This document shows, in pieces, positions 1-41,510 of a stretch of 64,000 nucleotides of DNA. The notes beneath the pieces are model-generated. The model did no database searches and was not told the origin of the DNA. It worked only from the letters and a program-made list of their open reading frames with translations. The translations under genes were made by a program, and so were the position numbers. Each line of letters starts with the position of its first letter. Position 1 is the first letter of the stretch. This stretch comes from Bacteroidetes bacterium HGW-Bacteroidetes-8 (lineage in GTDB: Bacteria; Bacteroidota; Bacteroidia; Bacteroidales; UBA932), in contig PHCZ01000002.1 in assembly GCA_002840895.1 (NCBI GenBank), forward strand, positions 157,786-221,785, read 5' to 3'.

Positions 1-53
1 ACGCCTAACTTGTCAACGATGATGGCTTTAACTTTTGCATTAATGTCTGCCAT
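1..53 (-). CDS. acpP: Acyl carrier protein (N-terminal fragment, cut by the window edge)
   Basis: Only the first 17 codons are inside the window. They read MADINAKVKAIIVDKLGV, which fits the N-terminal helix of bacterial acyl carrier protein (Bacteroidetes forms begin very similarly). ACP carries growing fatty-acyl chains on a phosphopantetheinylated Ser that lies beyond the window edge. The gene is divergent from purN, an arrangement I recall as common in Bacteroidales, where acpP is followed by fabF and rnc. The identification rests on a short stretch plus this context. Confidence 0.8.
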   Translation of the reverse strand, partial: MADINAKVKAIIVDKLG

Positions 54-14739: not shown

Positions 14740-14826
14740 TAGTGCCCTGGCGTGAAATTTGTAGCAAAGCAATCCGGAATACCGCTTAATATCACTCAAT
14801 TACTTCACTTAATCAACCCTTTTGTT

Positions 14827-16109: not shown

Positions 16110-17354
16110 ATGAAAAAGTCTCAACTCCTGTATTTATCAGTTGTCATCATTTTCTTTGCTCATTCCTGCAAAGAGAAGAGTACTTATGACTCTTCATCTA
16201 CAGGTATTAAAACAATCTCCCTGCCCGATGCTATTGGAAAAGAGAGGATAGTAAATCTTAGCGAGGTTGCAAAATCTATCCGCTACATCCCGCTGGAGAC
16301 TTCGGATAGTTCGCTGCTTGGCAACATACCAAGACCTATTCTGGAAAACGGGGTATTCTATGTTACAATCAGGTCCGGGTTAAAAGAGGAGTTTATGATG
16401 TATAATATTGATGGTAAATTTTTAGGCAAGTTGGGTCGGTACGGCAGAGCAGCCGGCGAGTACCAGACAAATATGTCCTCACTTGCACTCTCTGTTGATT
16501 ACAAAAGTGGTAATCCCATAATCTTCTCTACAAATAAAGTTATTGAGTTTGATAAAAAAGGTAATTTCATAAAGGAGGTAAAATCCCCGGTTGAATCTAC
16601 TTTTAATTTAATCTTACTTAGAGTTAAAAAATTAGGTGATAACTACATCTCTACTCTTTATGATTTTGACCAACGCAAATCTTTCTACCTCTTTTTTAAT
16701 GCGAATGGAGAAGCAATTGAAGAGGCACCTGAGTTACCTAAAGCACAAAATAGAGATGGGTTAAAAACCAAAGAGTCAAATGAAGTGAGTACCACAATCT
16801 TGTCTGCATCCAATGCCATAGCTGTATCGATACCCTATATGTACGATTATAAAGATAACACCAGATTGATGGGAAATACAGACACCCTCTACACCTTTAA
16901 TCCTAAGATGGAAAAAAGAGCTCTTTATCATTTTGAATATGGAAAATATGAGTTGCCTCTTAACTCAACCGGCGACCAGAGATCACAGTCAATCTTTCTT
17001 ATATCCGGATTTACCTGTGAATGGGAAGATCACCTGTTTCTCACATATAACTTTGGTAACAATGAACCCAATGGATATACACCGCCACTAGTAAGGGGAG
17101 TGTTTAACAAAAAGAGAGGGGATCTGACTCTTCTTAAAAGGGTAACCCCGGAGATTGGAGGGTTTAAAAATGACCTGGACAATGGTGCTCCGTTCTGGCC
17201 CGTTCACATCTCAAGGGAGGGGGAGATGATAATGCCGCTCTCTGCTGCAAAATTTATTGAACTCAGTGAAAAGTATGACTCGCCGGAGATGAAGAGGGTT
17301 GCTGCAACCCTTACCGAGGAGTCAAATCCGGTGATGGTTGTGGTAAAATTGTAG
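16110..17354 (+). CDS. 6-bladed beta-propeller lipoprotein, tandem copy 2
   Basis: A 414-residue paralogue of the preceding gene, 8 bases downstream. Lipoprotein signal with lipobox AHSC near residue 20. Two blocks are almost the same as in copy 1: the N-terminal block (16203-16364 versus 14920-15081) and the last part of the gene (17161-17336 versus 15905-16080), where only four differences are seen, all at third codon positions. The middle third is much more diverged. The shared C-terminal segment includes NGAPFWPVHISREGEM and SEKYDSPEMKRVAATL. No function can be assigned. Confidence 0.75.
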   Translation: MKKSQLLYLSVVIIFFAHSCKEKSTYDSSSTGIKTISLPDAIGKERIVNLSEVAKSIRYIPLETSDSSLLGNIPRPILENGVFYVTIRSGLKEEFMMYNIDGKFLGKLGRYGRAAGEYQTNMSSLALSVDYKSGNPIIFSTNKVIEFDKKGNFIKEVKSPVESTFNLILLRVKKLGDNYISTLYDFDQRKSFYLFFNANGEAIEEAPELPKAQNRDGLKTKESNEVSTTILSASNAIAVSIPYMYDYKDNTRLMGNTDTLYTFNPKMEKRALYHFEYGKYELPLNSTGDQRSQSIFLISGFTCEWEDHLFLTYNFGNNEPNGYTPPLVRGVFNKKRGDLTLLKRVTPEIGGFKNDLDNGAPFWPVHISREGEMIMPLSAAKFIELSEKYDSPEMKRVAATLTEESNPVMVVVKL

Positions 17355-17372: not shown

Positions 17373-17406
17373 TAAAAAAAAGGGGCGGCCATTTTGAGCC
17401 GCCCCT
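17373..17406 (-). terminator. Intrinsic terminator of the C25/TonB operon
   Basis: A 9-bp perfect GC-rich stem (AGGGGCGGC at 17381-17389 with GCCGCCCCT at 17398-17406) and an 8-base loop. On the minus strand the stem is followed by a run of eight T, so it ends transcripts from the minus-strand cluster, 34 bases after the stop at 17440. Confidence 0.85.
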
Positions 17407-17439: not shown

Positions 17440-19731
17440 CTACTTTAACCTTAAGGTGCTTTGCAGCGCCTCTGCTTTAAGCTCTGGGGCGGTAGTTTTA
17501 TCGTTATACACTGCTTCGAGTGCATTAATAATCTCGCTTTTTCTTATGCTCCAGTTAAACCAGCCCAAAGCCTCTGCCATAGTGATTCTCACTTTAAGGT
17601 TGTCGCCGGTATCTGCAAGAACATTTATAAAATGGGATGTCTGTTTGTGGTTGTTGTAGTTTCTAAGTGATCTTACTGCAGATATCCTTTTTTCAGGTGT
17701 ACTGTTTTTATCCTTAATTGTTGCCAGGGCTGTCTCCTGTCTTTTAAACTCACTATTAAAGTAACCTGTAAGATCGCTTGCTGTTTTGGATGGGTTAAGC
17801 AGATTTGAGCCTTCGCTCTGTCTTTTGACCTCCTCTAAAACCATCTCCTTTTCGAACATAAGCAGAGAGCTCTGTGCAGCGTACTGAACCCTGATGCTCT
17901 CGTTTGAGAATAGCAGGGTGTTTACCAACGGTTTTACAAGCGCAGGATTACCCGAGTAACCACAAAAGCGGGCAGCATTTCTTCTGATAAGTTCATAAGG
18001 ATCTTCTAAAGCAACTAAAAGCGCCTCTGCAAAATTATTGTCAGAGAGGTCAATAAATCTTTTAAGCGCCTGCATACGAACAATGTAGTAAGGGCTCTCT
18101 TTTAAGACCTTCAAAAGAAGATCTGAGTAGCCTGCCGGAGGGTTTTTTGAGAGCTGTTTAAGAGCTGTTGCCAGGTAATTTGGGTTCTCTCCATTTTTCT
18201 CAAAAATGCTCATCCAGTACCTGCTATCTTTTGATCTGGTTGCAAGATCTCTGTTTAACAAATCTCCCCGCTCTCTGTTTTTTGCAGATTGCTCTCCCAA
18301 AACTTTGGATTGCTCTGACGAAATCACCGGTGGTGTTCCCGGAATCAGACGATATGTTGGGTCTCCTATCAGGTGAGACTCAAGGGTTTGGATCTCTTTT
18401 TGCCAGAACCCCACTCTTGCACCCTCTGCCAGCATACCGATAAGCTCCATTGACCATTTATCCTGCAATACATTTACAGTATTGCCCTGGGCAACCACAG
18501 TGTTACCATCTGCAAAAACGTGGTAGCCGGCAATATAGCCTTTCTGGTGGAAAGAGCCGTTGTAGCAAGCGTCAAAGATGGTTATTCTTGACTGTGGCGT
18601 AATTGTCTTAAGGTCTGCAAGGGAGATGTTGATATTGGCAGCAAATGTAGAGTCGGCAGCTTTGGTTGAGCGGAGAAGCTCTGCGTCAAAGAAGGCCTCT
18701 GTGAGGCCAAAATCTGCCATCATACTGCTTTTAAAGTTGCTTTTCCTCTCTCCTGTGTATCTGCGATAAGTATTCCTGACAGAGGCAGAGAGTGCCTCCA
18801 TCGGGCCCGTAACTTTTCCGCTAAGGGTATTAGGTGCCGGGTATTCTCCGCTAATATACTGGGTGTCGAAGGCTCCGTGTTCGTGAAAAACAAAGAGGTC
18901 GGTACCTTTTCGCTGCATCCTCTCATAAAGTTTGAACTTCATAAAAGGGTCCTGGCGGAAGTTGTAGAAGCCGTTACCTTTAGAGCTCTTAAAAGCAGCA
19001 GGAAACTGCTCTTTAATTGCAAACTGCTGGTTCTGCCATACAGTAAGGCAATCTGAGTTATAACCGTGTCCGTTAAAGAAGATAATATTATCTGCATAGT
19101 TCTCTTCCAGATGCGCCTCTACAGCCTTTTTGAAGAATCGTCTTATGAGCTCATAAGTGTCCACTCCAAAATCTGAGGGAGGTAGTACTCTTGCGGAGTA
19201 GAACTCGCTCTCTATCTTTTGCCCAGAGCTCTCTTTAAGATTATAGTAGAAGTGGCGTGGGTTAAGAGAGCCCTTTTTAAAAAACTCAAACTCAAGGTCC
19301 AGATCGTCATAATATCTGTCACTTGTAACAGAAGATTCGGTGATGGGGAAGTTCTCTTCATCCATCTTAAATGCAGTGGTTGCGTGCTGGAAATTTCTAA
19401 CCCTTACAACAGGGATATCTCCGACAAACAGAGCCCCCTCCATTACCGGACGCTTGTTGTAGATCTTTCGTATCTCTTCACGCAGTGTCTCGGGTGAGCT
19501 CCACTCCCCTATGAGAATCTCAACTCCCAAACCCTCCTTTTCAAGCACTTTTTTATACTCTGCAACCTCAGATGATGCCGCTTCGAAGCTTGTTCGGTCT
19601 ATTACAACCAGAAATCTGGATGCATATTTACCCTTTGCAGGGATAATGCGACTTCTCCCCTCCATCTCCGATAAAGATCCAATCAGTATCAGAGCTAAAA
19701 ATATGTATTTTATTATTTTTTTCATCTTCAT
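17440..19731 (-). CDS. C25-like (gingipain-fold) cysteine peptidase with HEAT repeats, copy 3
   Basis: A 763-residue exported protein. After a signal peptide (about 1-25) comes a region resembling Peptidase_C25: a VLEKEGLGVEI strand, ALFVGDIPVV, SDRYYDDLDLEFEF, then two strand-HG motifs (FFNGHGYNS with His222, and FVFHEHG with His285) and a nucleophile strand ITIFDACYNG with Cys389, followed by the SHLIGDPTYR typical of the end of the C25 domain. By clan CD logic His285 and Cys389 are the likely dyad. Residues about 480-763 are alpha-helical repeats of HEAT type (AVRSLRNYNNHKQ, VRITMAEALGWFNW). There is no gingipain propeptide and no T9SS sorting domain. Six bases separate it from copy 2. Confidence 0.7.
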   Translation of the reverse strand: MKMKKIIKYIFLALILIGSLSEMEGRSRIIPAKGKYASRFLVVIDRTSFEAASSEVAEYKKVLEKEGLGVEILIGEWSSPETLREEIRKIYNKRPVMEGALFVGDIPVVRVRNFQHATTAFKMDEENFPITESSVTSDRYYDDLDLEFEFFKKGSLNPRHFYYNLKESSGQKIESEFYSARVLPPSDFGVDTYELIRRFFKKAVEAHLEENYADNIIFFNGHGYNSDCLTVWQNQQFAIKEQFPAAFKSSKGNGFYNFRQDPFMKFKLYERMQRKGTDLFVFHEHGAFDTQYISGEYPAPNTLSGKVTGPMEALSASVRNTYRRYTGERKSNFKSSMMADFGLTEAFFDAELLRSTKAADSTFAANINISLADLKTITPQSRITIFDACYNGSFHQKGYIAGYHVFADGNTVVAQGNTVNVLQDKWSMELIGMLAEGARVGFWQKEIQTLESHLIGDPTYRLIPGTPPVISSEQSKVLGEQSAKNRERGDLLNRDLATRSKDSRYWMSIFEKNGENPNYLATALKQLSKNPPAGYSDLLLKVLKESPYYIVRMQALKRFIDLSDNNFAEALLVALEDPYELIRRNAARFCGYSGNPALVKPLVNTLLFSNESIRVQYAAQSSLLMFEKEMVLEEVKRQSEGSNLLNPSKTASDLTGYFNSEFKRQETALATIKDKNSTPEKRISAVRSLRNYNNHKQTSHFINVLADTGDNLKVRITMAEALGWFNWSIRKSEIINALEAVYNDKTTAPELKAEALQSTLRLK

Positions 19732-19737
19732 CTCACT

Positions 19738-21900
19738 TTATCGCATATACACCTCTAATCTCGCAATTGTCTTTGTAAGCTCATCCAGAAGCTTAGGGTC
19801 AATCTCTCTATTTTGGGAGGCTTCTTTGCAGGCAGCCACAATTTCGCCTCTTCTATGTGAGAGGTTAAACCAACCCAGAGCCTCTGCCAGAGCAATTCTC
19901 ACTTTGACATCATCCTTCGGGTCTTTCAAAACTATCAGCAAATCGTCAACTTTGTTGTGATATGTGTTGTTCCTGAGCATCTTCACAGAAGCCAGCCTGG
20001 CCTTAGTGCTTTTGTCCCTGTTTGTGACATCGTCTGCCATCTGGGCAATCCGTCTGCGGGAGTCAAATCTATCTTTGAAATCTGCCCAAACAACTCTCTT
20101 ATCATAAAAAGTTGTGTTTAAGTCCAGCTGAGCTTTAACCTCATTCTCAAGCTTATCCATATCCATAAGGTCAAAACCGAAGGCGGCATTAAACTGCACC
20201 CTCTCGTCCAGATAGTCATTAAGATAAACCTTTGCTATATGTGGTATATACTCATCTTTTCCAACTCTTCCCATTGCAAATGTAGATTTACGCCTTATGA
20301 ACTCATAAGGGTCATAAACAGAACTTTTGATAAGCTCTTCAAATTTCCCGTTATTGTAGAACTGAAGCAGATGGAAACATTGAAGCCTTACTGTATAGAG
20401 TTGAGAGCTGTTATATGTATCCAGAAGCAGCTCATCCAGGTTGGGATAGTCAAGAGCGAACAGTTTATGTAGTGCCAAACCTTGAAGGTCGGCCTCTTTT
20501 TCTAGTTTAAGTACAGATAGCCAGTATTGAGAATCTTTCGACTTAAAGTCGATTGATTTGGTCTTAGCAGATTTAAAGCGGAAAGTAGGATCTCCAATGA
20601 TATGAGATTCCAGAATGTTTACATTTTGCATCCACTCCCCTACGCTAAACCCAAGCCCAAGCATACCCATAAGGTCACAGGCAGATTTATCCTGCAGCAC
20701 ATTTACGCTGTTCCCGATGGAAACAACAGTCTTACCCTCGCTAAAGATGTACTCAGCTGCAATGGAGGACTCTTCCCTAAAATCTGCGTTGTAACAGGCG
20801 TCAAAGAGAACAACCCTTGCATTTGGTTTAATGTTTGGAATATCTTCAAGCAAGATACCCATCTTTGCATCGTCCAGTGAGTCCTTAACTAGTTGTTTAG
20901 GGTCCAAAAAGCCTTCAAACCAGGTGGAGTCAATTTTGTATTGGCTCATCCATTTGGTTTTCATCTGCTCCCTCTTAGCTGAATCGCTCTCTTTTGCGAG
21001 TGCAGTTCTAAAAAGGGCCCTTGCAGATTCGCTGTACTCAGATACCCCTTTGCTTAGAGGAATTCCTGTAAGATATTGCCTGTAAGGCATCCCGTGCTCG
21101 TGAAAGAGCATCAGGTCCATCTCCTCACGCCTTAACTCCTCACTAACTATATCCTTCATATATGGATACATATTGAAAAGCAAAAACTTAACAGAGTTTT
21201 TGTCTTTAAAAGAGTTCGGGAACTGCTCCCGGAGCGTGTGCCCCTCCTCTTTCCAGGCAGTTATGCTGTTTGAAAATGAGCCGTCTCCGGTATATGATAT
21301 AATGACATCCAAGTAGTTATCCTTAGCTCTCTCTTTGAGAAGCTTCTTAAAATAGCCTCTTATCTGGTTGTACCCCTGCTCACCTGACTTTGTAGGCTTG
21401 ATTCTCCCGCTGTAGATATCACAACTAATTTTTTGAGGAGAGTCTCCCCTCAAAGAGTAGTAGTGAAAAAGGGAATTAACACTATCCTTACCTAAGTAGT
21501 TAAATTTAAGATCGAAGTCATCGTAGTAGCGGTCCGAAGGGACCGAGGAGCTCTTGAAGGGGAAGAGCTCCTGATCCATTTTAAATGCAGAAGTAAAGTG
21601 CTGAGCATCTCTTAACATTGGAATTGGGATCTCTCCTAAAAAGAGAGCACCCTCAAGACCTTTGTCAAGATATAACCTCTGCAGGACATCCTTAACCTGC
21701 ATAGGATTACTCCACACCTGCGCAACCACTACAGCGGAGAGCCCCTCTCTCTCCAACACAGATCTGTAGTTTTCTATTTCGGCCCTGCAGGCCGTGTAAG
21801 TATCTTTGTCAACAATTATGGCAAACCCCCTCTCTGCGCTTTTTAACTGCGCAGAGAGCGAGATTACCAATAGAACAAGAATTAATAACTTTTTATACAT
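19738..21900 (-). CDS. C25-like cysteine peptidase with HEAT repeats, copy 2
   Basis: A 720-residue paralogue of its neighbours. Signal peptide about 1-22, C25-like domain about 25-440 and HEAT-type helices about 455-720 (VRLQCFHLLQFY, VRIALAEALGWFNL). The likely dyad is His269 in LFHEHG and Cys369 in VVLFDACYNA. The first strand-HG motif of the other copies is changed here to TGDG (Asp206 in place of His), which supports the second HG as the catalytic one. SHIIGDPTFRF closes the domain. Spaced 6 bases from copy 3 and 15 from the DUF6850 gene, so certainly in one transcript. The substrate is unknown; a protease acting on an outer-membrane partner is one option. Confidence 0.7.
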   Translation of the reverse strand: MYKKLLILVLLVISLSAQLKSAERGFAIIVDKDTYTACRAEIENYRSVLEREGLSAVVVAQVWSNPMQVKDVLQRLYLDKGLEGALFLGEIPIPMLRDAQHFTSAFKMDQELFPFKSSSVPSDRYYDDFDLKFNYLGKDSVNSLFHYYSLRGDSPQKISCDIYSGRIKPTKSGEQGYNQIRGYFKKLLKERAKDNYLDVIISYTGDGSFSNSITAWKEEGHTLREQFPNSFKDKNSVKFLLFNMYPYMKDIVSEELRREEMDLMLFHEHGMPYRQYLTGIPLSKGVSEYSESARALFRTALAKESDSAKREQMKTKWMSQYKIDSTWFEGFLDPKQLVKDSLDDAKMGILLEDIPNIKPNARVVLFDACYNADFREESSIAAEYIFSEGKTVVSIGNSVNVLQDKSACDLMGMLGLGFSVGEWMQNVNILESHIIGDPTFRFKSAKTKSIDFKSKDSQYWLSVLKLEKEADLQGLALHKLFALDYPNLDELLLDTYNSSQLYTVRLQCFHLLQFYNNGKFEELIKSSVYDPYEFIRRKSTFAMGRVGKDEYIPHIAKVYLNDYLDERVQFNAAFGFDLMDMDKLENEVKAQLDLNTTFYDKRVVWADFKDRFDSRRRIAQMADDVTNRDKSTKARLASVKMLRNNTYHNKVDDLLIVLKDPKDDVKVRIALAEALGWFNLSHRRGEIVAACKEASQNREIDPKLLDELTKTIARLEVYMR

Positions 21901-21915
21901 TCCTTAAGAGCAACA

Positions 21916-23481
21916 TTAGAAGGTAAATCCAAGGCCGATAGTTGTCTGCATACGATTCCCTTCACCCTCTACAGGTTTGTAGTAATCTGCAGCAACTTTA
22001 ACAAACATACCGGATTTATTACTACGGCTGATATTTGTAAAGTAGCTCACCTCACCCCCTATTTTATAATAGTCCTGTCTTGAGTATTGCATATCCGGTG
22101 TCATAAACTGGGTAATAACAGGGGAGGTAGCATCTGCTCCTTTATAGATATAGTAACCATTAATATTGTTTTTATAGATAAAATCTGCACCCAGAATCAA
22201 TCTGTTTGCAAGTTTTAGAGGAATATTTGTCTTTGCATTAATTCCAAAGAAAAGATTCTCAACCCTCATTTTGGATTTAGGTAAGATGTAGAGGTCGTCG
22301 TTATCTCTGTAGTTAGCGAAGAGCCCGGCTTTCCACTTGTACTCGTGAGCAGCGCCGCGGAAGAAGTCGTATTTGGCAACCATATCAATCTGGTTGTAGG
22401 TAGATCTTACACTGCTGTATACATCTACCCAGCGCTGAACTTCATATGTATTGTCAAGAACCTGAACATACTCGATTCCGCTACTGTTATTTACACTGTA
22501 TGATAGATCCAGACGGTGAAAATTGTCACAGCTTTTGGTTACTGTAAGGTTTGCCGACATCATCTCCTCCTTTATGGTTCCCTCTTTCTTTGGTTTTGTC
22601 GGGGAGCTGATAACATCCTCTACCCTTAGGTGATAGTTACCGGATAGAATGAAATTGATATCGGAAATTCCGTATGAGTACTGGATATCGCCTCCAATCT
22701 TATTACCACTGTAAACAAACTGACCCAAAGATTGAAGTCCGCCCACTACTGCCGAGTAGAAATTTCCAAGCCCTTTAACAACATAGACATCCTGGCTTAG
22801 CTGACCGTTACTGTTGGTAGTTCTGGTCTCTTCTACAAGGTTTTGATAGACCATATTTACCCCTACAGAGTGTTTGCCGAACATAGCTGCAATACCAGGT
22901 TTTACAGTAATGGTGTAGAAATATCCAACAGAACGAGGGTCTACCTGTTTAGCTCCGGTGCTTGTTACATATTCACCCTGAATACCTACTATATACTTAT
23001 CCCATAAAGGTTTGCTGGCAACCTTCATCTCCAGTTTATAGTTCTGTCTTTTCCAGTCACTCATATTTTTATCTACTGTATAGAATGGCATACCTCTCTC
23101 GGGGTTGATCATAGTGGTATTGTAAAGAGTATTTCTCAGGGTTTCGTTATTGTAGGAGAATTTACCCCAAACATAACCTCCGCTAAGTTTTAGTCCACCC
23201 TCTGTAGATACGCCAAGAGTACTCTCCTTCTCTCCGTCGTGGCTCTTTTTAAAGTCGCCGCTCTTAATTTTATATTGAAAATTAAGGTCGCTATAGTCGT
23301 GCATCTTGTCCAATGTGAGACCCGCTGCGTTGTTTGTATTGAACCATAAAGATTTAGCCTTTAACAATTCAATAGATGCCGGCGAATTTTGCTTCGCCGC
23401 CTCCTGGGCAACCGCTGAATTAGTGGTTATTAGAGTCATAATTAGTGCTCCTGCCCAATATATATATTTAACTTTTCTCAT
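21916..23481 (-). CDS. DUF6850-like outer-membrane beta-barrel protein, module 1
   Basis: A 521-residue exported protein. The start at 23481 is chosen because it gives a clean signal peptide (MRKVKYIYW to AVAQ) and exactly the same length as its paralogue at 39933; a longer in-frame reading from 23526 would overlap the previous gene. NTNNAAGLTLDK near residue 45 is the kind of segment I associate with the DUF6850 family, and the remainder is alternating strands ending in QTTIGLGFTF, as expected for an outer-membrane barrel. It forms a trio with the DUF4876 and TonB-receptor genes just upstream. No biochemical role is known to me. Confidence 0.72.
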   Translation of the reverse strand: MRKVKYIYWAGALIMTLITTNSAVAQEAAKQNSPASIELLKAKSLWFNTNNAAGLTLDKMHDYSDLNFQYKIKSGDFKKSHDGEKESTLGVSTEGGLKLSGGYVWGKFSYNNETLRNTLYNTTMINPERGMPFYTVDKNMSDWKRQNYKLEMKVASKPLWDKYIVGIQGEYVTSTGAKQVDPRSVGYFYTITVKPGIAAMFGKHSVGVNMVYQNLVEETRTTNSNGQLSQDVYVVKGLGNFYSAVVGGLQSLGQFVYSGNKIGGDIQYSYGISDINFILSGNYHLRVEDVISSPTKPKKEGTIKEEMMSANLTVTKSCDNFHRLDLSYSVNNSSGIEYVQVLDNTYEVQRWVDVYSSVRSTYNQIDMVAKYDFFRGAAHEYKWKAGLFANYRDNDDLYILPKSKMRVENLFFGINAKTNIPLKLANRLILGADFIYKNNINGYYIYKGADATSPVITQFMTPDMQYSRQDYYKIGGEVSYFTNISRSNKSGMFVKVAADYYKPVEGEGNRMQTTIGLGFTF

Positions 23482-23507
23482 TTTAATATTATTGATGATG
23501 TTAAACA

Positions 23508-24728
23508 CTATTTCCAAGTATTCCAAGATGGGGCTTTTGCACCATATCTTCTGATAACAGGAGGGTTCAACACTTCAAAATCCTCCGAACTGTTGTTTGT
23601 GTCATACAGAATTACCCTTCCGTCTGTCTTTGTCTCTTTAACCTTTCTGCCAACACTCACACTCAGGTAAGTCCCGCCAACGGTAGCTGCTCCTGCATCT
23701 AATACAGCCGGCATCCTCTTAAGCTGAACCTGATTTGCATTACCTACCAACTCAAGGGCATCCACAACCTCATCAATAGGAATTTTGTAGTTCTTGGATG
23801 TACTCCCTACCGGGCTTATGAAATTCGCAGGGTTAATAGCAACGGAAGGATAGTAGATTACAAAAGCTCCTCCAAAGACAGTTGTTAACCACTGAGGCGT
23901 AGGAGATGGCCAGAATGCCATCACCATATTAATTGCAGGATTGTTCTGAATTAGAGAAGTAGTGTTTATGAAGGTCTCAAACTCTGCGCTTAAAAGATTA
24001 ACCGGAGAGTTTGGATTTAGATTTGACTTCTTATGGTCATCTGCCATTTGGGCAATAATAATTGACTCACCTGGATTAAGAGGGTAGTCAACATCTGTTG
24101 GTACTTGCCATATTGTAGAGGCATAGACAAACTTGGAAGCATCATCTCCGGGCCATACAGGCAGATTGGCTGTTGCTGTAAGAGGGTTAAGAATTGCAAT
24201 ACACAAACCTCTAACATTCTGAACAGTTTCGCTGTTGTTATAAATTTCGTAGAACTGATCACGGAAATATGAACCGCCGGTTGGTGTTTTTGAACCACAA
24301 TAGTAGACCTCTTTCAAAACCAGTGCACCCGATTTCGAAGCACCTACATTGACTGTTATCTGTTTATTGTTTGTTACAACATCTACGTTTACCACATTAC
24401 CACTGTAGTTATAGGTAAATCCATCCTGAGCCTTTTCCGAAGACAATGTAATGGTATAAATCCCCGGAATTATACCTTCAACAGTAACAGTACCGTTTGC
24501 ACCCATAGTGGTGTTAACCTCATACCTTTCGGCATAGTTTATCAGTTTAACATTAAATCCATTGGGAGCCGGAGCGGATCCCAAGTCGAGGTTCGCTTTA
24601 ACCACTACGCTTAGTGATTCTATTTCACCTATTTTGGAAACATCTTCGAACTGCTGGCACGATGCAGCGGTGAAAAGAGCCAAAACAGCTACTATTAATA
24701 TTTTATAAATATTTTTCATCTCTGACAT
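23508..24728 (-). CDS. DUF4876 lipoprotein, module 1
   Basis: A 406-residue lipoprotein (signal, lipobox TAASC near residue 24). An N-terminal beta-sandwich (about 35-130) resembles a carboxypeptidase-regulatory or Ig-like fold. The second part starts with ALVLKEVYYCGSKTPTGGSY and FYEIYNNSETVQNVRGL, reminiscent of a lamin-tail-like domain, and the C-terminus holds VILYDTNNSSEDFEVL, conserved in the paralogue at 41511. The family (DUF4876) is uncharacterised and found in Bacteroidetes. By position it is probably the surface lipoprotein partner of the receptor 8 bases upstream, playing a SusD-like capture role; that role is inference. Confidence 0.75.
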   Translation of the reverse strand: MSEMKNIYKILIVAVLALFTAASCQQFEDVSKIGEIESLSVVVKANLDLGSAPAPNGFNVKLINYAERYEVNTTMGANGTVTVEGIIPGIYTITLSSEKAQDGFTYNYSGNVVNVDVVTNNKQITVNVGASKSGALVLKEVYYCGSKTPTGGSYFRDQFYEIYNNSETVQNVRGLCIAILNPLTATANLPVWPGDDASKFVYASTIWQVPTDVDYPLNPGESIIIAQMADDHKKSNLNPNSPVNLLSAEFETFINTTSLIQNNPAINMVMAFWPSPTPQWLTTVFGGAFVIYYPSVAINPANFISPVGSTSKNYKIPIDEVVDALELVGNANQVQLKRMPAVLDAGAATVGGTYLSVSVGRKVKETKTDGRVILYDTNNSSEDFEVLNPPVIRRYGAKAPSWNTWK

Positions 24729-24736
24729 ATTTTTAA

Positions 24737-27601
24737 CTATTTGATTGTTAATGCCAGCTCAAATCCGAAGAACATAGGAATGTTCAGTCGGGTGAATGAG
24801 CCCGGTGTTCGTTTACTCTCATAGAGAGGCCTGCTGTTAAACATATTGTTCGCATAGAAGGAGGCCTTTAGGTTCTCTCCAATCTCTTTTGTAAGGTAGA
24901 AGTTGATAAGAAGAACAGGGAAATAGGCTTCGGCTACAAAACGAGATGGACTTCTGCTACTGAACATATATGCAAATTCCGGGTCGTTTTTAAGTGCAGG
25001 ATCAAATGGCTTGATCTGTCCGTCAACTCTTGAGATGTACGAGACAAAAGTTGTATCATTTCCGTAGCTTGTCCAGCTCTTATTGTGCCAGTTAACCTGT
25101 GCGGTAGCTGTCACTACAAATCCGATAGAAGGTATATTATGAATAACTCTTAGCGTTGTTAAGAACCTCTCTCTCTGGTCTTTTGTGTTTCCCTCTTCGT
25201 AGATACCGATGTTTTTCTCCAGGCTATTAAGATTCTTATTTGTCCCGAAGCTATTTGCATCATTCCACTCGGTGCTTCTCATATATGCCCCGCTAAGTAC
25301 AAATGAGGTTCTTATTGCGTCAAACCTTCCGAAGTCAAAATCAAATTCAACCCCTCTGTTATTCGCTTTAACAGTATTCATCGGGGTTGCAAAGCTTACA
25401 AACACCTTGTTAGTGGATTTCTCCTTAAGCTTAGGTATAGAACCTGGTACTGCCTCACCAACTTCATACTGAACGTAGTTGATAAGTCTGAAGTTTTCTG
25501 CCCTCATACCCAAATCGTATCCATTGATAAGGTTTTCGTTGTAGGCAGTAACTGAGAATCTCATTTTTTTGATCCTGAGGTCAAAACCAAATTCGCTTTT
25601 GGCGTTGGAAGCTATCTTAAGAGCCTTATTCTCGGTATTGAAAATTTTGGTTGAAGATAGTAGGAGCTGCTCTGCAACCGGAATTGACGAGCTGTTGAGA
25701 GTATTGTAGTGGACAAAATCGAAATAGGCGTTCTCCGGGCTAAGGTATATTGTCCCCGGTGCTTTGGCAGATACTCCGTATCCCCCTCTTATCCATAATG
25801 ACGCCGGTAGAAGCTCAAACGATGCATTAAAACGCGGAGCAACAATATTTTTACCGGCAATGTTGTCATATCTCACTCCGGCCTGAGCGGTAAGATCTCT
25901 ATCCCCGATGTTCCAGGTTAGGTTCTCCTCGGCATATAGACCCATTTGGGTTATGAAAGGTATATCGGAATATTTACGAGGTCTTGATGATGAGTTTTCT
26001 GAACTTAATACCCTGTATGGAGGGTTTTTAAGATCGTAGACTTTCCCGTCACCAAGGTTTCCGTCTGTCTTGAAATCTGCACCCAAAACTATTCTATTGG
26101 TAATGTTTCCACTTCTTTTAGAAAAGGTTGCGTTTATTTTTGCAAAAACGTTAAGCTCTTTACCATAGATATCGTAACGACTGAAATATTCGTTAGGCAG
26201 ATATGTGGCATAGTAGCTACTCTCACTTGAAGGTATGTTTGTCAGTTCAGTTCCGTTCATATGGTACACCTTCTGCCCAGGTTTGTTACTTAAAACTGCA
26301 CCATCTGTAGTTGACATCGAGTAGGCAGAGAAAGCATTACCCAGTAGCTCCTGACGGAATGAGTGTTTATCTCTGTAGCTTGCAGATGCTGTATATTTGA
26401 TGTTATTGAGCCAGCCCCAGTTAATGTTCCAGGTTCCGTTTGTGTTAAACCTGATACCCATATCCTTTGCACCTGTCTCAAGCTGAGTTCTCTCGTCATC
26501 CGGATTTCTCTCGCGTGTATCTTTACCAAGAGAGAGGTCGAATGAGGTTGTAGTTGAGAGGTTTTTAAAGGTGTTTGAATAGAGTGCTTTTGCGGTAACC
26601 CTCTGGTAATATGCATATGACTCTGTTTGATCTGAAGCGCTGTATGCATAGTCTCCGCTGATATTTATGTTTCCTCTCTTCTCTCCAAGGCTTATCCCTT
26701 TACTTACAGATGTCTGATAGATGTTAGGGTCGGTTTTAAACCTTATTGTAAGAGGCTCTTTACCTGCTTTAGACCTTACGATTACCGCACCTGATGTTAA
26801 GTCTCCGTATTCAACTGATGGAATACCTCTTATAACCTCTACAGACTCAATGTTATCTGTTGATATTGAGCGGATATCCAACCCTGAGTTAGGAGAGGAC
26901 CCCCCTGCAACAGCTGAGCCGCCACCACTGATTGTTGGATTAAGAGTCTGCATATTGGCATTATTTGAGAGTGGTGCACCATCCACAATAATAGAGGTAC
27001 CCATACTGTTCATATTTGTTGCAGACCCACCTATACTACGAATCGTAAAGGTTTTGGCAATAGAGAGGCTTGGGTTTACAGTGATTCCACCGGGAAGTAG
27101 CTGCATAATATCCGAAAGCGAGCTGGTTTGTAGGTGGTCCATTGCCTGTCTTGAGATATTGGAGGCAGTTGCCTGTCCCGCCTTCCCTGCCGTAGCCACT
27201 ACTGTCACGTCTGAAAGACGGAATGAGCTATACTGCATACGGAAGGTGATCTCGGTCACCTTACCGGCAGTAAGTACAAAGGTGGTATCAACGGTCTCCA
27301 TCCCGAGAAACTGGATTTTAACATCCACTCTCCCCGGAGATAGTCTCTCAAATGAGAACTCCCCCTTTGTAGTGGTAGTAGTTACCGACCCCTGAGGGAG
27401 AACCTGAATTGTTGCAAACTCAACCGGGATATTTTCCGATCCGCGCTCAAGCACAACACCTTTTAACGTAGCATAATTTCCCTGAACAGAAGTTTGTGCC
27501 GAGAGATTGGCACAAAATCCCATTACAAGAAACAACACTAACGCAGACAGAGCAAATGACTTCGCACCTCTGTCCGGAACCTGGATTTTGTGTCTCTTCA
27601 T
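24737..27601 (-). CDS. TonB-dependent receptor with CarboxypepD_reg-like domain, module 1
   Basis: A 954-residue outer-membrane receptor. Order: signal peptide (about 1-36, LSAQ), carboxypeptidase-regulatory-like domain (about 45-125; ATLKGVVLERGSENIPVEF), plug (about 135-265) with TSLSDIMQLLPGG, a Gly/Ser-rich loop SGGGSAVAGGSSPNSG and NIESVEVIRGIPSVEYGD, then a barrel ending in FFGFELALTIK. No SusD follows; instead a DUF4876 lipoprotein and a DUF6850 barrel do. The substrate is not known. It sits 53 bases after a C25-like gene on the same strand. The plug resembles that of the receptor at 42761, showing the two modules are paralogous. Confidence 0.88.
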   Translation of the reverse strand: MKRHKIQVPDRGAKSFALSALVLFLVMGFCANLSAQTSVQGNYATLKGVVLERGSENIPVEFATIQVLPQGSVTTTTTKGEFSFERLSPGRVDVKIQFLGMETVDTTFVLTAGKVTEITFRMQYSSFRLSDVTVVATAGKAGQATASNISRQAMDHLQTSSLSDIMQLLPGGITVNPSLSIAKTFTIRSIGGSATNMNSMGTSIIVDGAPLSNNANMQTLNPTISGGGSAVAGGSSPNSGLDIRSISTDNIESVEVIRGIPSVEYGDLTSGAVIVRSKAGKEPLTIRFKTDPNIYQTSVSKGISLGEKRGNINISGDYAYSASDQTESYAYYQRVTAKALYSNTFKNLSTTTSFDLSLGKDTRERNPDDERTQLETGAKDMGIRFNTNGTWNINWGWLNNIKYTASASYRDKHSFRQELLGNAFSAYSMSTTDGAVLSNKPGQKVYHMNGTELTNIPSSESSYYATYLPNEYFSRYDIYGKELNVFAKINATFSKRSGNITNRIVLGADFKTDGNLGDGKVYDLKNPPYRVLSSENSSSRPRKYSDIPFITQMGLYAEENLTWNIGDRDLTAQAGVRYDNIAGKNIVAPRFNASFELLPASLWIRGGYGVSAKAPGTIYLSPENAYFDFVHYNTLNSSSIPVAEQLLLSSTKIFNTENKALKIASNAKSEFGFDLRIKKMRFSVTAYNENLINGYDLGMRAENFRLINYVQYEVGEAVPGSIPKLKEKSTNKVFVSFATPMNTVKANNRGVEFDFDFGRFDAIRTSFVLSGAYMRSTEWNDANSFGTNKNLNSLEKNIGIYEEGNTKDQRERFLTTLRVIHNIPSIGFVVTATAQVNWHNKSWTSYGNDTTFVSYISRVDGQIKPFDPALKNDPEFAYMFSSRSPSRFVAEAYFPVLLINFYLTKEIGENLKASFYANNMFNSRPLYESKRTPGSFTRLNIPMFFGFELALTIK

Positions 27602-27654
27602 AGTTAATAATTGTTAATTTGGGTTAGTTGTATAAGTTTTTTTCTATATTCTTA

Positions 27655-29814
27655 TTAATAAGTAAGCCGATACACTGTTCTCAGAAGCTCTTTTTTGACA
27701 GCTTCGCTCTTCTCTACTTGTGCCTGCTCTTTGCAAAAGGCAACTATCTCGTCTCTTTTACTTGAGTTGGTGTACCATCCGAACGCCTCTGCCAGATATA
27801 CTTTTAGTTCTGCATCTTCCGATGTTTTAAGAAACTTAAACAGGATATCCAGATAGGCAATACTATTGGAGTTGCGTAGAGCTGTTATGGAAAATCGTTT
27901 GCTTTTTGCAGCTACTGCAGGATTTAAAAGATCTGTATACTCCTTCTCCGTTCTCTCCAGAGTATAGAGCATACTTTTTCTCTCCTTTGCTCTGTTTTTA
28001 TACCACTGGTCATCTTTGGACTCTACGTGATTCTTAAATGCTTCCAGAGCATCACTTTTCGAATAGGCCTCACATCCACCCTTTAGCTGAAACTCAACTC
28101 TTTTACTTGTTCCCGGCGCAAATCTTACATTGAAAATATCATCAATAAGCTCGGGAGAGAGATTTGTAGATGCATCTTTGGCAGCAAGCCTTCTAATTAA
28201 CTCATAGTTATCGTAAAGACCGGCCCTTAAAGATGCAACCAAGTTAGGGTTATCCTTTTTATTTATTAGATAGAATGCCTGCAGCCTTACCGTTGGCCTG
28301 CTTTCACTCCTCTGGATCGATAGAAGCTCTTCTGTTGAGATCTTCCCTGAAAAGTAGAGCATTTTCATTGCCAATGATTTCAACTCAGGATTTGAATCTT
28401 TCATAGCCTTTCTCCAGAGCTTTTCGTCACTCTTATTTAACACCATAGCCTCATCTAGCCAGTTAAGATCTGCTCTTGACGAAGCGTATCTGAAAGTGGG
28501 GTCTCCAATGAGATGAGACTCAAGTGTCATCTGACCTTTTGCCCAGTTACCAACACTCACACCAAGGTCCATAAGGCCTATCAGCTGATTTGTCCAGGTG
28601 TCCTGCAGAGTGTTAACCGAATTTGCCTTTACAACAACTGTCTTTCCATCGTTGAAAATATAGTGACCGCTGATGTAGTCATTCAGGTGGAAAGAGCCGT
28701 TAAAGCAAGCGTCTATTAAGATAACCGGAACATTGGATTTATACCCGTACATATCGGGAATGGTAATATCCATCGAAGCATCATCAAGGCTATCCTTTCT
28801 CATCACCTCTGGATTAAAAGCGTTCTCTACCCAGGACTCAGGAACAGAGTAGTTCTCTACGTAATATTTTTTTGACGCAGTAGTGTCATCTGAACCTCTT
28901 ATTTTGCCTCTGAAAAATTTCTTAGTAAGTTCCAGCCATATATTGGCCGAATTGGTGATTGGTGAACCGTTAAGAAGTTGCGCATCTTCCGATCCGTGAT
29001 GGTGAAGTACAGCGAGGTCGAGATCTTCTCTGGAGAGCTCTGCCATAAGGCGATACTTAACATAGTCGTCAAAGGTAAAGTCTATATAATTCAATTTGCC
29101 TTTCCCCTCACGAAAAATATTGAACTGCTCTATTAGAGTCACTCTCTCATCTGCACGAGAGACCATACAGTTTGAGTTGTATCCGTGACCTGCAAAATAT
29201 GAAAGATCTGTTATACCTCTTTTAACACTCTTCTCTCTGACCGCTTTGTCCAGATATTCGTTTATAAGCTCAAAGCTATTTTTCCCTGGAACTACCGGCG
29301 GTTTGATGCGTGCGCTATAGATGTCACAGTTGATTCTGTGCGGCGAGTTGTCACTCAGGTTATAGTAATGAAAAAGAGTGTGAACAGAGTCTCTTTTGAT
29401 ATATTCAAACTTAAGGTCAAAGTCATCATAGAACCTGTCCGAAGGAATAGATGAATCCTCCCAGGCTCTTCTCTGGTCCATTTTAAAAGCTGTTGAGAGG
29501 TGCTGACCATTCCTGATCATTGGGATAGGTATATTACCTATAAAAATAGCCCCCTCAAGATTTTTATCTGCATATAGTTTGTACAGGTGGGCTCTTAAAG
29601 AGTCCGGCACTCCCCACTTATCTAACACTACTATTGGGACAAGTCCGTCGGTCATTATGGAGCCGGCAAAACCATCGATTGAACTCTTGCAGTTGTCGTA
29701 GGTGATCATATCAACCACGATTGCAACTGCTCTTTTTGCAGGCTTTGCTATTAGAAAACCTGACTGAAGCATTGAAAATGAAATCAGTAATATTGTAACA
29801 AATTTTTTCATCAT
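27655..29814 (-). CDS. C25-like cysteine peptidase with HEAT repeats, copy 1
   Basis: A 719-residue paralogue of the two C25-like genes at the far end of the cluster, placed upstream of the TonB receptor. Signal peptide about 1-23; C25-like domain to about 445 with FAGHGYNS (His210), VLHHHGSED (His273, likely catalytic) and VILIDACFNG (Cys370, likely nucleophile), ending SHLIGDPTFRY; HEAT-type helices to the C-terminus (VRLQAFYLINK, LKVYLAEAFGWY). The HHHGSE segment is the closest of the three to the HGSE of gingipains as I remember them. No propeptide, no Ig domain, no T9SS tail. Flanking the receptor trio on both sides, the three copies look like working parts of the system rather than bystanders. 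Confidence 0.7.
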   Translation of the reverse strand: MMKKFVTILLISFSMLQSGFLIAKPAKRAVAIVVDMITYDNCKSSIDGFAGSIMTDGLVPIVVLDKWGVPDSLRAHLYKLYADKNLEGAIFIGNIPIPMIRNGQHLSTAFKMDQRRAWEDSSIPSDRFYDDFDLKFEYIKRDSVHTLFHYYNLSDNSPHRINCDIYSARIKPPVVPGKNSFELINEYLDKAVREKSVKRGITDLSYFAGHGYNSNCMVSRADERVTLIEQFNIFREGKGKLNYIDFTFDDYVKYRLMAELSREDLDLAVLHHHGSEDAQLLNGSPITNSANIWLELTKKFFRGKIRGSDDTTASKKYYVENYSVPESWVENAFNPEVMRKDSLDDASMDITIPDMYGYKSNVPVILIDACFNGSFHLNDYISGHYIFNDGKTVVVKANSVNTLQDTWTNQLIGLMDLGVSVGNWAKGQMTLESHLIGDPTFRYASSRADLNWLDEAMVLNKSDEKLWRKAMKDSNPELKSLAMKMLYFSGKISTEELLSIQRSESRPTVRLQAFYLINKKDNPNLVASLRAGLYDNYELIRRLAAKDASTNLSPELIDDIFNVRFAPGTSKRVEFQLKGGCEAYSKSDALEAFKNHVESKDDQWYKNRAKERKSMLYTLERTEKEYTDLLNPAVAAKSKRFSITALRNSNSIAYLDILFKFLKTSEDAELKVYLAEAFGWYTNSSKRDEIVAFCKEQAQVEKSEAVKKELLRTVYRLTY

Positions 29815-29915
29815 TATTTTTTATGCGATGTATATAAAATTTAATCCCCGCAAAGCTGATTGCGAAAACACAAACCAAAACGGGAGGTAAAATTTTTACC
29901 CCCTATCGCTGCAGA

Positions 29916-30356
29916 TCATAAAATCAGCTGACGATTCAACTCGAATATGGGTATCGGGGCGCATCGGAACAGCGCGTGAAAAGTTTTGATAATTGGACGC
30001 TGAATAATGGTTATCCCAAGACAGAGCATATTCTGCGGCAATAACAGTGAGATGTCCGTTAAAATAAAACTGAATAGGTGACCCTGAACATCTTGATCTG
30101 AATCAAGGAAATAGTATGAGACCGAACAGCAGTCATCTTTTTTTGGTTCTTTTGCCAACAGGTGCTCACCACATATGCAACGATGACCTTTATGGGCACT
30201 CTCAACCTCGTGGGTACAAGAGCATTGTGTGCGTATACCAAAAAAAGATATTTGGGATGCGTGGTCGCAGTGACAGGAATATCTGCCTACACCCATCATC
30301 GTAAAAAGATAGATGGAAATTGATGTAGTAGCCAGTATGAAATTCTTTACAACCAC
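29916..30356 (-). CDS. Small Cys/His-rich protein (HYC_CC_PP-like)
   Basis: A 146-residue protein with an N-terminal hydrophobic segment (about 5-22) and eight Cys between residues 28 and 77: three CxC pairs (28/30, 45/47, 60/62) and a CC at 76-77, mixed with His 29, 32, 49, 55, 58 and 65. This layout recalls the small HYC_CC_PP-type proteins encoded beside metal-linked TonB receptors in Bacteroidetes; the match is by pattern, not by close similarity. It probably binds a soft metal or a metal complex in the periplasm (inference). The start is a GTG at 30356; a good promoter lies just upstream within the DUF6599-like gene. Confidence 0.55.
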   Translation of the reverse strand: MVVKNFILATTSISIYLFTMMGVGRYSCHCDHASQISFFGIRTQCSCTHEVESAHKGHRCICGEHLLAKEPKKDDCCSVSYYFLDSDQDVQGHLFSFILTDISLLLPQNMLCLGITIIQRPIIKTFHALFRCAPIPIFELNRQLIL

Positions 30357-30379
30357 TTTTATTAAACCTGCCGTTGTGG

Positions 30380-30413
30380 CAAATGTAGTAAAAATTTTTG
30401 TTTAAAACTCAAA
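30380..30413 (-). promoter_or_regulatory. Putative promoter for the C25/TonB operon
   Basis: On the minus strand TTTG (30410-30413) is followed after 22 bases by TACATTTG (30380-30387), an exact TAnnTTTG. It lies at the 3' end of the DUF6599-like gene and 24 bases before the GTG start of the Cys-rich gene, so the downstream seven genes could be transcribed separately from DUF362. Confidence 0.55.
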
Positions 30414-31148
30414 CCGGATACAATCTTCGTCACAGGAAACAATAGAGGAGGCGGGAATTCTCTCTTTTAAAATTGTAAGATAATCTCTGTTATTTACATA
30501 AATTATCGCCAAATTCCTGTTGTTTAACCCCTTCTCTGCGACCCACAAGTTATAATCTGCAATCTCCTCAAAAAGGGGAGAGAGCTCGGGGGCAGCATTA
30601 ACCAAAGCTAGTTTACCCCGGACATATTTTACCCTTCCCGAAACCGGCCTATCTGTCGCAGATATATCTGCAGGAAATGCGGGGTTTCTCTTCTCTGTAT
30701 CCTTTGAGTAAATTGCCAGGAGTTCCGCCGCCTCTTTTTTAAACCTTATAGCAGATTTTTCATATACTATCGAGTAGTATACATCTCCGATTACTGCCTG
30801 CATCTGCAATGGAGAGAAGCAATTAAGCTGTGAAAGAGTATCTGCGCAATTGCAGCGGAAGGTGTGAAGTGAGTAGATACCGAAAGCATCCTCCGGTGAT
30901 GGCATTTTGTATATCTCAATAGAGTACTGCTCTCCTTTATAAGTCACCTCCAGGGCTCTTAGCTCTTTGAATCCGTACTCAAGATAGAGATCACTGCCAC
31001 CATTCATAAAGCCATACAGGGCAGTTCCGGTGAATGTTCGCTCTCTTGTAACCGTAAGCTCCTGTGCACAGAGGTGATCAACTGTATTAAGAAGAGTCAG
31101 GGCTGCAAATAATACTGCTATTTTGTTGATCTTTAAATTGAAATCCAT
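30402..31148 (-). CDS. DUF6599-like exported protein
   Basis: A 248-residue exported protein (signal about 1-28, ending LCAQE). It looks like the DUF6599 family: FTGTALYGFMNGGSDLYLEYGF near the start, then IEIYKMPSPEDAFGIYSLH and a paired RCNCADTLSQLNC. I recall members of this group occurring next to DUF362 proteins, as here (18-base gap). No catalytic motif is recognised. The RCNC motif could bind metal or form a disulfide. Function unknown. Confidence 0.55.
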   Translation of the reverse strand: MDFNLKINKIAVLFAALTLLNTVDHLCAQELTVTRERTFTGTALYGFMNGGSDLYLEYGFKELRALEVTYKGEQYSIEIYKMPSPEDAFGIYSLHTFRCNCADTLSQLNCFSPLQMQAVIGDVYYSIVYEKSAIRFKKEAAELLAIYSKDTEKRNPAFPADISATDRPVSGRVKYVRGKLALVNAAPELSPLFEEIADYNLWVAEKGLNNRNLAIIYVNNRDYLTILKERIPASSIVSCDEDCIRFEF

Positions 31149-31166
31149 CGCCTATAACTCATAAAT

Positions 31167-32318
31167 CTATATTATTTTCTCTGTAATAGATATCTTATCA
31201 CGGTCTCCCACTCCAAGTTTAAGCTCCTGGGCAAGGTCTATAAATCTTGAAGATTTTTGTAAGTCCTCCTTCTGGATACCGTTCTCTATCCTTTTTTTAA
31301 TTATCACATCGTGACCGACTCTGTCTACAGCAACCGCGTCGCTACCAACAAGAAGCATATTGTAGTTGCAGATAAACTGAGGTTTTGCAGATGGACCTCC
31401 GTCGAAGCATCCCACCAAACCATCTACGATATTCAAGACAACCTTGTCTCTAAGAGGGGGAAATGCGCAAACATAGGCACAGGTCTCGTGCCATAGTTTG
31501 TGGAGCCTGGATGTGTTTGTGATTGCCCCGAATGAGAGGTTTTTGAGGCAGAGGGTGGTGGTTGGTCCTGCATTCTTCAAAATTGGAAGGTTAATAATCT
31601 TGGTAACCCTCTCTGTACATATTTTTGTGAAATATGACTCTTTCCCTCCGTTGACCATATATGGAATAGTGTAGTCGTCATAAACTCCATCAAGATTGGC
31701 ATAGAAGAATTGAGATTTATCTATGCGGCTCTCACTATGAAGTTTTCCCTCCTTATCATAGAAGCCACCATCTGCATCCTGGCACTCGGTTCCTGTAATT
31801 GTAATTCCGGGATAGTTCTCCTGAGTATACCCGGTCTCGTGCAGCTGCATCTCACGTCTGTCCCAAATAACAATGTTCTCTCTTGGGATTCCTGCCTCCT
31901 CCAGCTGCCTGATAACAGACTTTGTAACAGCGTGAGAGGTTGTCAAAAGCTTTCCGGCAACAGGGTTTACCTTAAGACCTATTATATCTTTGGGTCCTAC
32001 AAATTGTCGCCACGCCTTTTTTAGCTTTTTTTCGCCGGTTAACGAGAGCATCGCTTCGCTTAACATTCTGTATGCAGCCTCCTCCTGTGGTTTCCCATCA
32101 ATTACAGATTTTTCGTCCATCACTCTTATAACTTTTCCGGGGTAGAGTCCCGGCATAGAGTCTTTAACCCTTGGGATTTTTACTGCATCTGCAATATTAG
32201 TTTCTATAGCTTCTGCACCAAACAATAAGGGCGAACCCTCTGCTGCCTTAAGAACAGGATTTATTGCCATAGCGGCACCTGTCATAGAGACAACTTTGAA
32301 AAAGTCTCTTCTTTCCAT
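31167..32318 (-). CDS. DUF362 domain protein with Tat signal
   Basis: A 383-residue protein. The N-terminus ERRDFFKVVSMTG followed by a hydrophobic stretch is a twin-arginine signal, so it is likely exported folded, often a sign of a bound cofactor. The body fits DUF362: VGLKVNPVAGKLLTTSHAV, ENIVIWDRREMQLHETGY, ITNTSRLHKLWH, LNIVDGLVG and a C-terminal VAVDRVGHDVI. DUF362 proteins often accompany Fe-S proteins, but no CxxCxxC ferredoxin motif is present here. First gene of the minus-strand cluster, 37 bases after cysS on the same strand. Confidence 0.8.
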   Translation of the reverse strand: MERRDFFKVVSMTGAAMAINPVLKAAEGSPLLFGAEAIETNIADAVKIPRVKDSMPGLYPGKVIRVMDEKSVIDGKPQEEAAYRMLSEAMLSLTGEKKLKKAWRQFVGPKDIIGLKVNPVAGKLLTTSHAVTKSVIRQLEEAGIPRENIVIWDRREMQLHETGYTQENYPGITITGTECQDADGGFYDKEGKLHSESRIDKSQFFYANLDGVYDDYTIPYMVNGGKESYFTKICTERVTKIINLPILKNAGPTTTLCLKNLSFGAITNTSRLHKLWHETCAYVCAFPPLRDKVVLNIVDGLVGCFDGGPSAKPQFICNYNMLLVGSDAVAVDRVGHDVIIKKRIENGIQKEDLQKSSRFIDLAQELKLGVGDRDKISITEKII

Positions 32319-39793: not shown

Positions 39794-39825
39794 AAATAGT
39801 AATGTTATAATTTTAAATAGAAGAA

Positions 39826-39872
39826 AACCCGCATAGCAGTTAAATCGCTAAAGATCAACAGATATACGGGTT
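39826..39872 (-). terminator. Possible terminator after the second DUF6850 gene
   Basis: AACCCGCAT (39826-39834) pairs with ATACGGGTT (39864-39872), 9 bp with one G-T pair and a 29-base loop, followed on the minus strand by TTCTTC and AT-rich bases. A second small inverted repeat, AGATTGA/TCAATCT (39890-39896 and 39907-39913), lies closer to the stop codon. The long loop lowers confidence. Confidence 0.4.
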
Positions 39873-41498: not shown

Positions 41499-41510
41499 CT
41501 TTATATCAAA

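Follow-up and report, generated by a model that had tools for sequence, protein, structure and literature searches.

The closest described relatives of the locus reported here are the Fus and YddB/PqqL systems of Proteobacteria, which are mostly linked to M16 proteases and combine the import of a protein with its periplasmic cleavage and with iron-dependent expression (PMC6793856). Other relevant loci are known from their response to low iron: PG1019-22 of P. gingivalis is upregulated 20.8- to 214.5-fold, and BT3625-33 and BT1933-39 of B. thetaiotaomicron are upregulated 36.7- to 128-fold and 3.5- to 7.4-fold, respectively (PMC10434189). BT1933-39 encodes a HEAT-repeat protein, a DUF4876 protein, and a TonB receptor, while BT3625-33 comprises ATP-binding cassette (ABC), PepSY, DUF4857, DUF4876, and TonB receptor genes; the available portion of that report assigns no mechanism or peptidase to any of the three loci (PMC10434189). 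A P. gingivalis DUF4876 gene, like hmuY, is under-expressed in excess hemin (PMC10470040). Here we analyzed a 64,000-nucleotide stretch of the genome of Bacteroidetes bacterium HGW-Bacteroidetes-8 (referred to as the window) and, within it, a cluster of nine genes at 17440-32318 that joins three HEAT-repeat, C25-related peptidases (C25H, copies a, b, and c) to a TonB receptor, a DUF4876 lipoprotein, and a DUF6850 barrel (the trio).

The C25H genes and the trio form, almost certainly, one unit. The reading that we favor for this core, with a probability of about 0.42, is a protease-associated import system for a ligand, most likely iron, that is bound to a protein or peptide. In the literature that we searched, as far as its available portions go, no description of a TonB system combining C25H with DUF4876 and DUF6850 was found. 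An earlier note on the window, made from the sequence alone, had treated both DUF families as lacking a known role; for DUF4876 this needs amending, since induction of DUF4876 loci by iron depletion has been published (PMC10434189).

Results

Linkage of the C25H peptidases to the trio

All nine open reading frames of the cluster were confirmed at the positions given in the earlier note, on the minus strand throughout, and the trio follows the order receptor, DUF4876, DUF6850. The genes of the core, in the direction of transcription, are as follows.

27655-29814, minus strand: C25H copy a; dyad H273/C370; model predicted local distance difference test (pLDDT) score 94.9; clade a of 29
24737-27601, minus strand: TonB-dependent receptor; Plug E 1.5e-12, CarboxypepD_reg E 9.4e-12
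23508-24728, minus strand: DUF4876 lipoprotein; PF16215 E 6.1e-44; lipobox AASC (by eye)
21916-23526, minus strand: DUF6850 outer-membrane barrel; PF21012 E 3.7e-100
19738-21900, minus strand: C25H copy b; clade b of 29
17440-19731, minus strand: C25H copy c; HEAT_2 E 5.3e-13; HEHG/DAC/GDP motifs; clade c of 29

The DUF4876 lipoprotein has a relative of solved structure (4q1z, E 4e-71). The DUF6850 gene is listed with a TTG start, an internal ATG being the likely start.

We then determined how constant this association is among related loci, taken as the best 79 of 519 C25H relatives from a scan of public genomes. Twelve of them, judged by eye to be truncated at a contig end (L013, L017, L023, L024, L025, L027, L032, L033, L046, L077, L081, and L088), were set aside, and L086 was counted as complete. 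A full trio stood beside C25H in 65 of the 67 remaining loci. The two exceptions, checked by tblastn, were L071, with C25H and a receptor only, and L070, with five C25H genes and no trio. The five-gene array of L070 (5472-16866) lacks the trio in the stretch examined, which may reflect a deletion or an assembly collapse. When genes were joined into runs at <700 bp, the gap between neighbors was ≤150 bp in 275 of 284 cases (median, 16.5). The records of the 79 loci name Bacteroidales, Prolixibacteraceae, Marinilabiliaceae, Chitinophaga, and others, and by their titles C25H loci occur in environmental, gut, and soil lineages.

The linkage was also followed in three genome samples (G000 and G262 being in more than one), with the places of C25H and DUF6850 paired by eye from their coordinates. 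In the order sample of 198 genomes, C25H was found in 8 (E≤1e-30), and each of these 8 carried DUF6850 on the same contig; the distance was ≤80 bp in seven of them and 3.3 kb in the remaining one. G244 had two C25H copies, one of which lay at a contig end without DUF6850. DUF6850 itself occurred in 33 genomes at 44 places, including 25 of the 190 genomes devoid of C25H (Fisher, 2.7e-7). In the one-genus sample, C25H was present in 10 of 60 genomes, always (10 of 10) within 250 bp of DUF6850, which was present in 40 of 60 (P = 0.023 for presence alone). Alignment A2, which contains the window copy together with 79 of the 87 representatives, matched 18 of the 118 genomes of the phylum sample at E≤0.001, only 3 of them at full length, the others being mostly matches to the HEAT part; all three full-length genomes had DUF6850 on the same contig, the two foreign ones at 2.7 and 8.7 kb. 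In the genomes sampled, the presence of C25H thus entails that of the trio but not vice versa.

These counts bear out the proposal of the earlier note that the C25-like peptidases and the trio are one system, and they are the reverse of the outcome that it had named as fatal, i.e., C25-like genes sitting only rarely beside the trio. That unrelated genes became neighbors by chance has next to no probability: the linkage holds in the 79-locus, order, and genus samples, and for the core we rejected chance outright on the counts of 65/67 loci and 8/8 and 10/10 genomes. Chance would apply solely to the lineage-limited DUF362 and DUF6599 genes and perhaps to the Cys-rich gene, all described below.

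Three distinct copies in fixed positions

Twenty-nine loci, the window included, share the order C25H, receptor, DUF4876, DUF6850, C25H, C25H and together hold 87 copies. Copies a, b, and c fell into three clades of 29 each (support, 0.96 to 1.0), with their positions kept. Judged from this tree, the three copies are an old triplication kept in place, and they are therefore likely to have separate jobs. Other lineages carry one or two C25H copies. Of the 96 trios placed in a tree, 65 were C25H-linked, and 54 of these formed one clade, with a support of 1.0.

Such constancy could mean that C25H acts on its own system, through maturation, activation, or turnover of the receptor, lipoprotein, or barrel or through regulated proteolysis, with a small iron chelate as the ligand. 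PorU, a C25 enzyme, processes envelope proteins, C25H keeps the same partners in nearly all testable loci, and the single large clade of C25H-linked trios is what would be expected if the trio were the substrate. However, of the 44 places of DUF6850 in the order sample, 36 lack an adjoining C25H, so trio maturation in general does not require C25H, and three distinct conserved copies exceed the need of a single cut. We regard this explanation as unlikely.

Family and fold of the C25H peptidases

The three large proteins (719 to 763 aa) matched only HEAT models in Pfam, the matches of copies a and b falling short of the curated cut-off; none of them matched Peptidase_C25 (PF01364), and nothing in this search placed them with the M16 proteases of the FusC/PqqL type. 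Identity to copy a is 35% for copy b and 29% for copy c. Copy c shows a hydrophobic N terminus (by eye), a peptidase domain of caspase order, and a HEAT C terminus. H273 and C370 were invariant in all 80 aligned members, and the His/Cys dyad was present in 87 of 87 position-typed copies. The AlphaFold model of copy a consists of an alpha/beta part followed by helical repeats, and in our own reading of its DSSP line H273 follows one core strand and C370 the next, which is the caspase order.

Kinship to family C25 is indicated by PF01364 matches in the relatives of the window copies. Among the aligned catalytic domains (alignment A3, 73 of the 80 A2 rows), 11 of 73 matched PF01364 at E≤1, with a best value of 1.5e-7, the window copy not being among them. 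Of 20 relatives scanned singly, 5 matched at E≤0.01 and one of these exceeded the cut-off. The relative at L090:10001-12166 reached 28.4 bits (cut-off, 23) over residues 348 to 444, a part that holds the DAC (370) and GDP (439) motifs. Comparison with PorU-type C25 was negative both by hhalign (probability of 1.4 against 19 PorU-type domains) and by hmmsearch of 149 C25H copies with a PorU-type hidden Markov model (best E, 0.11). In Foldseek, HEAT-repeat scaffolds led the list for the whole model, and weak generic alpha/beta matches led that for the catalytic domain, whose best 50 of 1224 matches included no solved gingipain; the family is therefore not settled by Foldseek. From their sequences, we take the C25H proteins to be C25-related peptidases of clan CD type, membership in C25 falling short of proven. 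Thus, of the earlier description of the three as HEAT-repeat, C25-like peptidases, the HEAT repeats stand, whereas the window copies miss PF01364 and owe the C25 label to their relatives.

TonB receptors are common entry points of bacteriocins, and C25H might thus serve as an envelope guard that destroys bacteriocins or phage proteins entering via the receptor. Copy c does match two PADLOC models weakly, HEAT-ARM_XIII, in the HEAT arm only (E 2.5e-7, 26.5 bits), and RdrB (E 0.008). The other eight proteins matched no PADLOC model at E≤0.01, bacteriocin immunity genes not having been searched for, and we consider such a role highly improbable.

As to the location of C25H, the N termini, read by eye, suggest export of these putative proteases, whose genes are linked to that of a TonB receptor. 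A lipobox-like motif was found in 11 of 146 C25H copies. Peptidase_C25 (PorU) had no match in the source genome or in one family relative and was present in 36 of 40 order genomes; surface export of C25H by the type IX secretion system is therefore unlikely. The same gap raises the possibility that this secretion system was lost in the family of the source genome.

Edges of the conserved unit

The core is flanked by the following features.

17381-17406, minus strand: intrinsic terminator; 10-pair stem plus T run
29916-30356, minus strand: Cys/His-rich small protein, 146 aa, with an N-terminal hydrophobic stretch; in 15/79 loci
30380-30413, minus strand: promoter-like element TTTG-N22-TACATTTG, upstream of the Cys-rich gene
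30402-31148, minus strand: DUF6599 protein; PF20244 E 7.2e-14; in 9/79 loci; neighbor
31167-32318, minus strand: DUF362 protein; PF04015 E 3.4e-14; in 9/79 loci; neighbor

Both signals predicted by the earlier note were found. The cluster is closed by a strong terminator (17406-17381) with 8 G-C pairs in its stem, and the element at 30413-30380 is one that we take to be of the Bacteroidota promoter type. Upstream of the core, the pattern TT[TG]-17..24-TAnnTTTG was present in 33 of 72 loci, near-identical loci included, whereas first-order Markov resamples gave 5.6 on average. Thirteen loci were searched for a conserved RNA leader in the stretch that separates the Cys-rich gene from C25H-a; they showed little conservation (mean column identity, 41%). 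The 64-kb window held no tRNA and no Rfam match at the gathering score.

The DUF362 and DUF6599 genes were present in 9 of the 79 related loci, some being truncated on the side concerned, and the DUF362 gene lies 37 bp after a cysteinyl-tRNA synthetase-like gene (by eye). Given this rarity and the promoter-like element after them, we rejected the two genes as core members; they are probably lineage-limited neighbors. Since the Cys-rich gene is also rare, and the promoter-like element precedes it and the core, the conserved unit most likely begins at the Cys-rich gene or after it, i.e., possibly at peptidase copy a. The earlier note had assigned DUF362 and the Cys-rich protein to a metal or redox step of the system. 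DUF362 drops out, and the Cys-rich protein is kept as a lineage-limited member. Likewise, the recurrence that the note had expected was found for DUF4876 and DUF6850 with C25H but extends to the Cys-rich gene in 15 of the 79 loci only.

The Cys/His-rich protein had no Pfam match. Its GRYSCxCxH, CxC, CG, and CC motifs are well kept in the alignment, and it looks metal-binding. It may resemble the HYC_CC_PP proteins; Pfam gave no match at E 0.1.

Trios without C25H

We compared 35 trio loci devoid of C25H with 32 control stretches. The models for ABC, DUF4857, and the other accessory genes were built from these same loci and therefore describe the expectation rather than test it. The C25H-less loci carried an ABC ATPase with a permease in 24 of 35 cases and DUF4857 in 22 of 35, besides PepSY (10 loci), a Cys-containing lipoprotein (17), and a NapH-like Fe-S protein (7). 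The controls contained a single NapH-like gene, and the ABC, permease, DUF4857, PepSY, and lipoprotein families were absent from them. The module of ABC ATPase, permease, and DUF4857 is conserved beside C25H-less trios, e.g., in L131, L132, and L134 (range L124 to L156). A profile scan of the trio genes found none in L151 and no DUF6850 in L152. C25H and the module occurred together in 4 of the 79 C25H loci (L074, L077, L082, and L083). S46, M16, or Met-zincin genes were found only where the ABC module was missing (5/11 versus 0/24; P = 0.0014 in a test chosen after seeing the data). One locus with the module (L145) had an M28 gene.

The source genome (2.9 Mb in 22 contigs, 95.7% complete) has four DUF4876/DUF6850 pairs, two of them in the window, and C25H matches, three copies, at the present locus only. 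Peptidase genes lie downstream, on the same strand, of all four trios: C25H; S46 (139 bp); ChaN-like, M16, and M16_C-only; and Met-zincin with S46. The second trio (39933-45592, within 37622-52909 of the window) has, besides the downstream S46, divergent genes for a NapH-like Fe-S protein, S46, and M16, and in a family relative (L147) a trio, M16, NapH-like, and S46 genes stand in a row. The third (L092, 5088-15763, contig C16) is preceded by a sigma factor of the extracytoplasmic function (ECF) type and followed by a ChaN-like heme-binding protein, M16, and M16_C; its M16 link recalls Fus/PqqL. The fourth (L093, 177-16268, contig C11), likewise preceded by an ECF-type sigma factor, is followed by Met-zincin, S46, asparaginase, and an SDF symporter and looks like a peptide-use operon. 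The window also contains three DUF5128 six-bladed beta-propeller genes (8175-9326, 14752-16101, and 16110-17354), the last two in tandem and with near-identical C termini.

Plain peptide nutrition is the main rival explanation: the trio would bring in oligopeptides for carbon and nitrogen, C25H would start their breakdown, and iron would play no part in this lineage. RagAB reportedly imports oligopeptides, an S9 peptidase gene is present in 12 of the 79 C25H loci, and the company of the fourth trio and the further peptidase genes of the window (S9 twice, M3, M20, S46 twice, and M16) are of the kind expected. On the other side stand the low-iron induction of DUF4876 loci in two species (PMC10434189) and the ABC module and DUF4857 of the C25H-less trios, which are those of BT3625-33 and are absent from the controls. 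On balance, we judge peptide nutrition rather unlikely.

Discussion

From the presence of putative exported peptidases together with a receptor, a lipoprotein, and a second barrel in an iron-induced family, we infer that an iron source bound to a protein or peptide is imported and broken down, and with this the location of C25H, the iron-protein cargo, and the proteolysis. In this mechanism, the DUF4876 lipoprotein and the receptor would capture at the surface a ligand, most likely iron-bearing, that is bound to a protein or peptide; TonB would power its import, and the DUF6850 barrel may aid assembly or passage. The three C25H proteins, exported and probably periplasmic, would use their HEAT arms to dock the cargo and would cleave it, freeing metal and peptides. 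By analogy, the best reading is that the system works like Fus/PqqL, with peptidases of clan CD type. Surface capture with processing by peptidases, as suggested by the earlier note, is thus retained as the best reading, without DUF362 and DUF6599 as members. A bolder version, which we hold to be doubtful, is a second, independently evolved class of machines for protein piracy, in Bacteroidota: a folded or partly folded iron protein would enter via the TonB receptor and be dismantled in the periplasm by a fixed set of up to three caspase-fold peptidases with cargo-holding HEAT arms, replacing the ABC/PepSY route by which the sister trios would handle small iron chelates.

Several observations weigh against the favored reading. 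The cargo is one that we infer, the induction data come from other species, and the HEAT protein of BT1933-39 is not tied to C25H here. A transcriptome from a PG_0686 study also lists PG1019 as changing (PMC10101095), and the gene is downregulated 5.5-fold with polyphosphate (PMC4236598) and upregulated in an RNA-binding-protein comparison (PMC12119571). The C25H-linked trios are not one clade: 11 of 65 lie in four further groups, and C25H was therefore gained or lost more than once. The catalytic domain has no close solved fold among the best 50 of 1224 Foldseek matches, with a template modeling (TM) score of 0.25 to 0.26 for SAVED-CHAT. The ABC gene of the module is missing, within the flanks examined, from 73 of the 79 C25H loci; the whole source genome gave no DUF4857 match, the positive control having matched, and the make-up of the BT3625-33 type (ABC ATPase, permease, and DUF4857 beside a trio) was not found in it. 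S46, M16, or Met-zincin genes were not significantly enriched near C25H-less trios (5/35 versus 1/32 controls; P = 0.20), and the window is rich in peptidase genes in general.

If the favored reading is true, DUF4876 and DUF6850 gain a testable role, the iron-induced gut and oral loci are explained, and a Bacteroidota counterpart with clan CD-type peptidases is an added way of nutrient piracy.

Compared with known systems, the locus shares a TonB receptor and a surface lipoprotein with what we take to be the arrangement of XusABC and SusCD/RagAB, whose lipoproteins presumably belong to other families; to our knowledge, those systems have no linked peptidase set. The C25 enzymes, gingipains and PorU, are like C25H in the His/Cys dyad after strands of caspase order, and the closing GDP motif also occurs in PorU-type C25; they differ from C25H in lacking its HEAT C terminus and in the negative hhalign result given above. 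XusABC is also named in the study of the iron-responsive loci (PMC10434189). PG1019-22, BT1933-39, and BT3625-33 each combine a TonB receptor with DUF4876, as here, and BT1933-39 adds a HEAT-repeat protein, whereas BT3625-33 has ABC, PepSY, and DUF4857 genes in place of C25H (PMC10434189). Protein import for iron is already published for the M16-linked systems of Proteobacteria (PMC6793856). Like the present locus with its putative exported proteases, Fus and YddB/PqqL link the gene of a TonB-dependent receptor to that of an exported protease, mostly an M16 metalloprotease, with other proteases in some clusters (PMC6793856), whereas the locus described here has cysteine peptidases of clan CD type with HEAT arms, a surface lipoprotein, a second barrel, and a Bacteroidota host.

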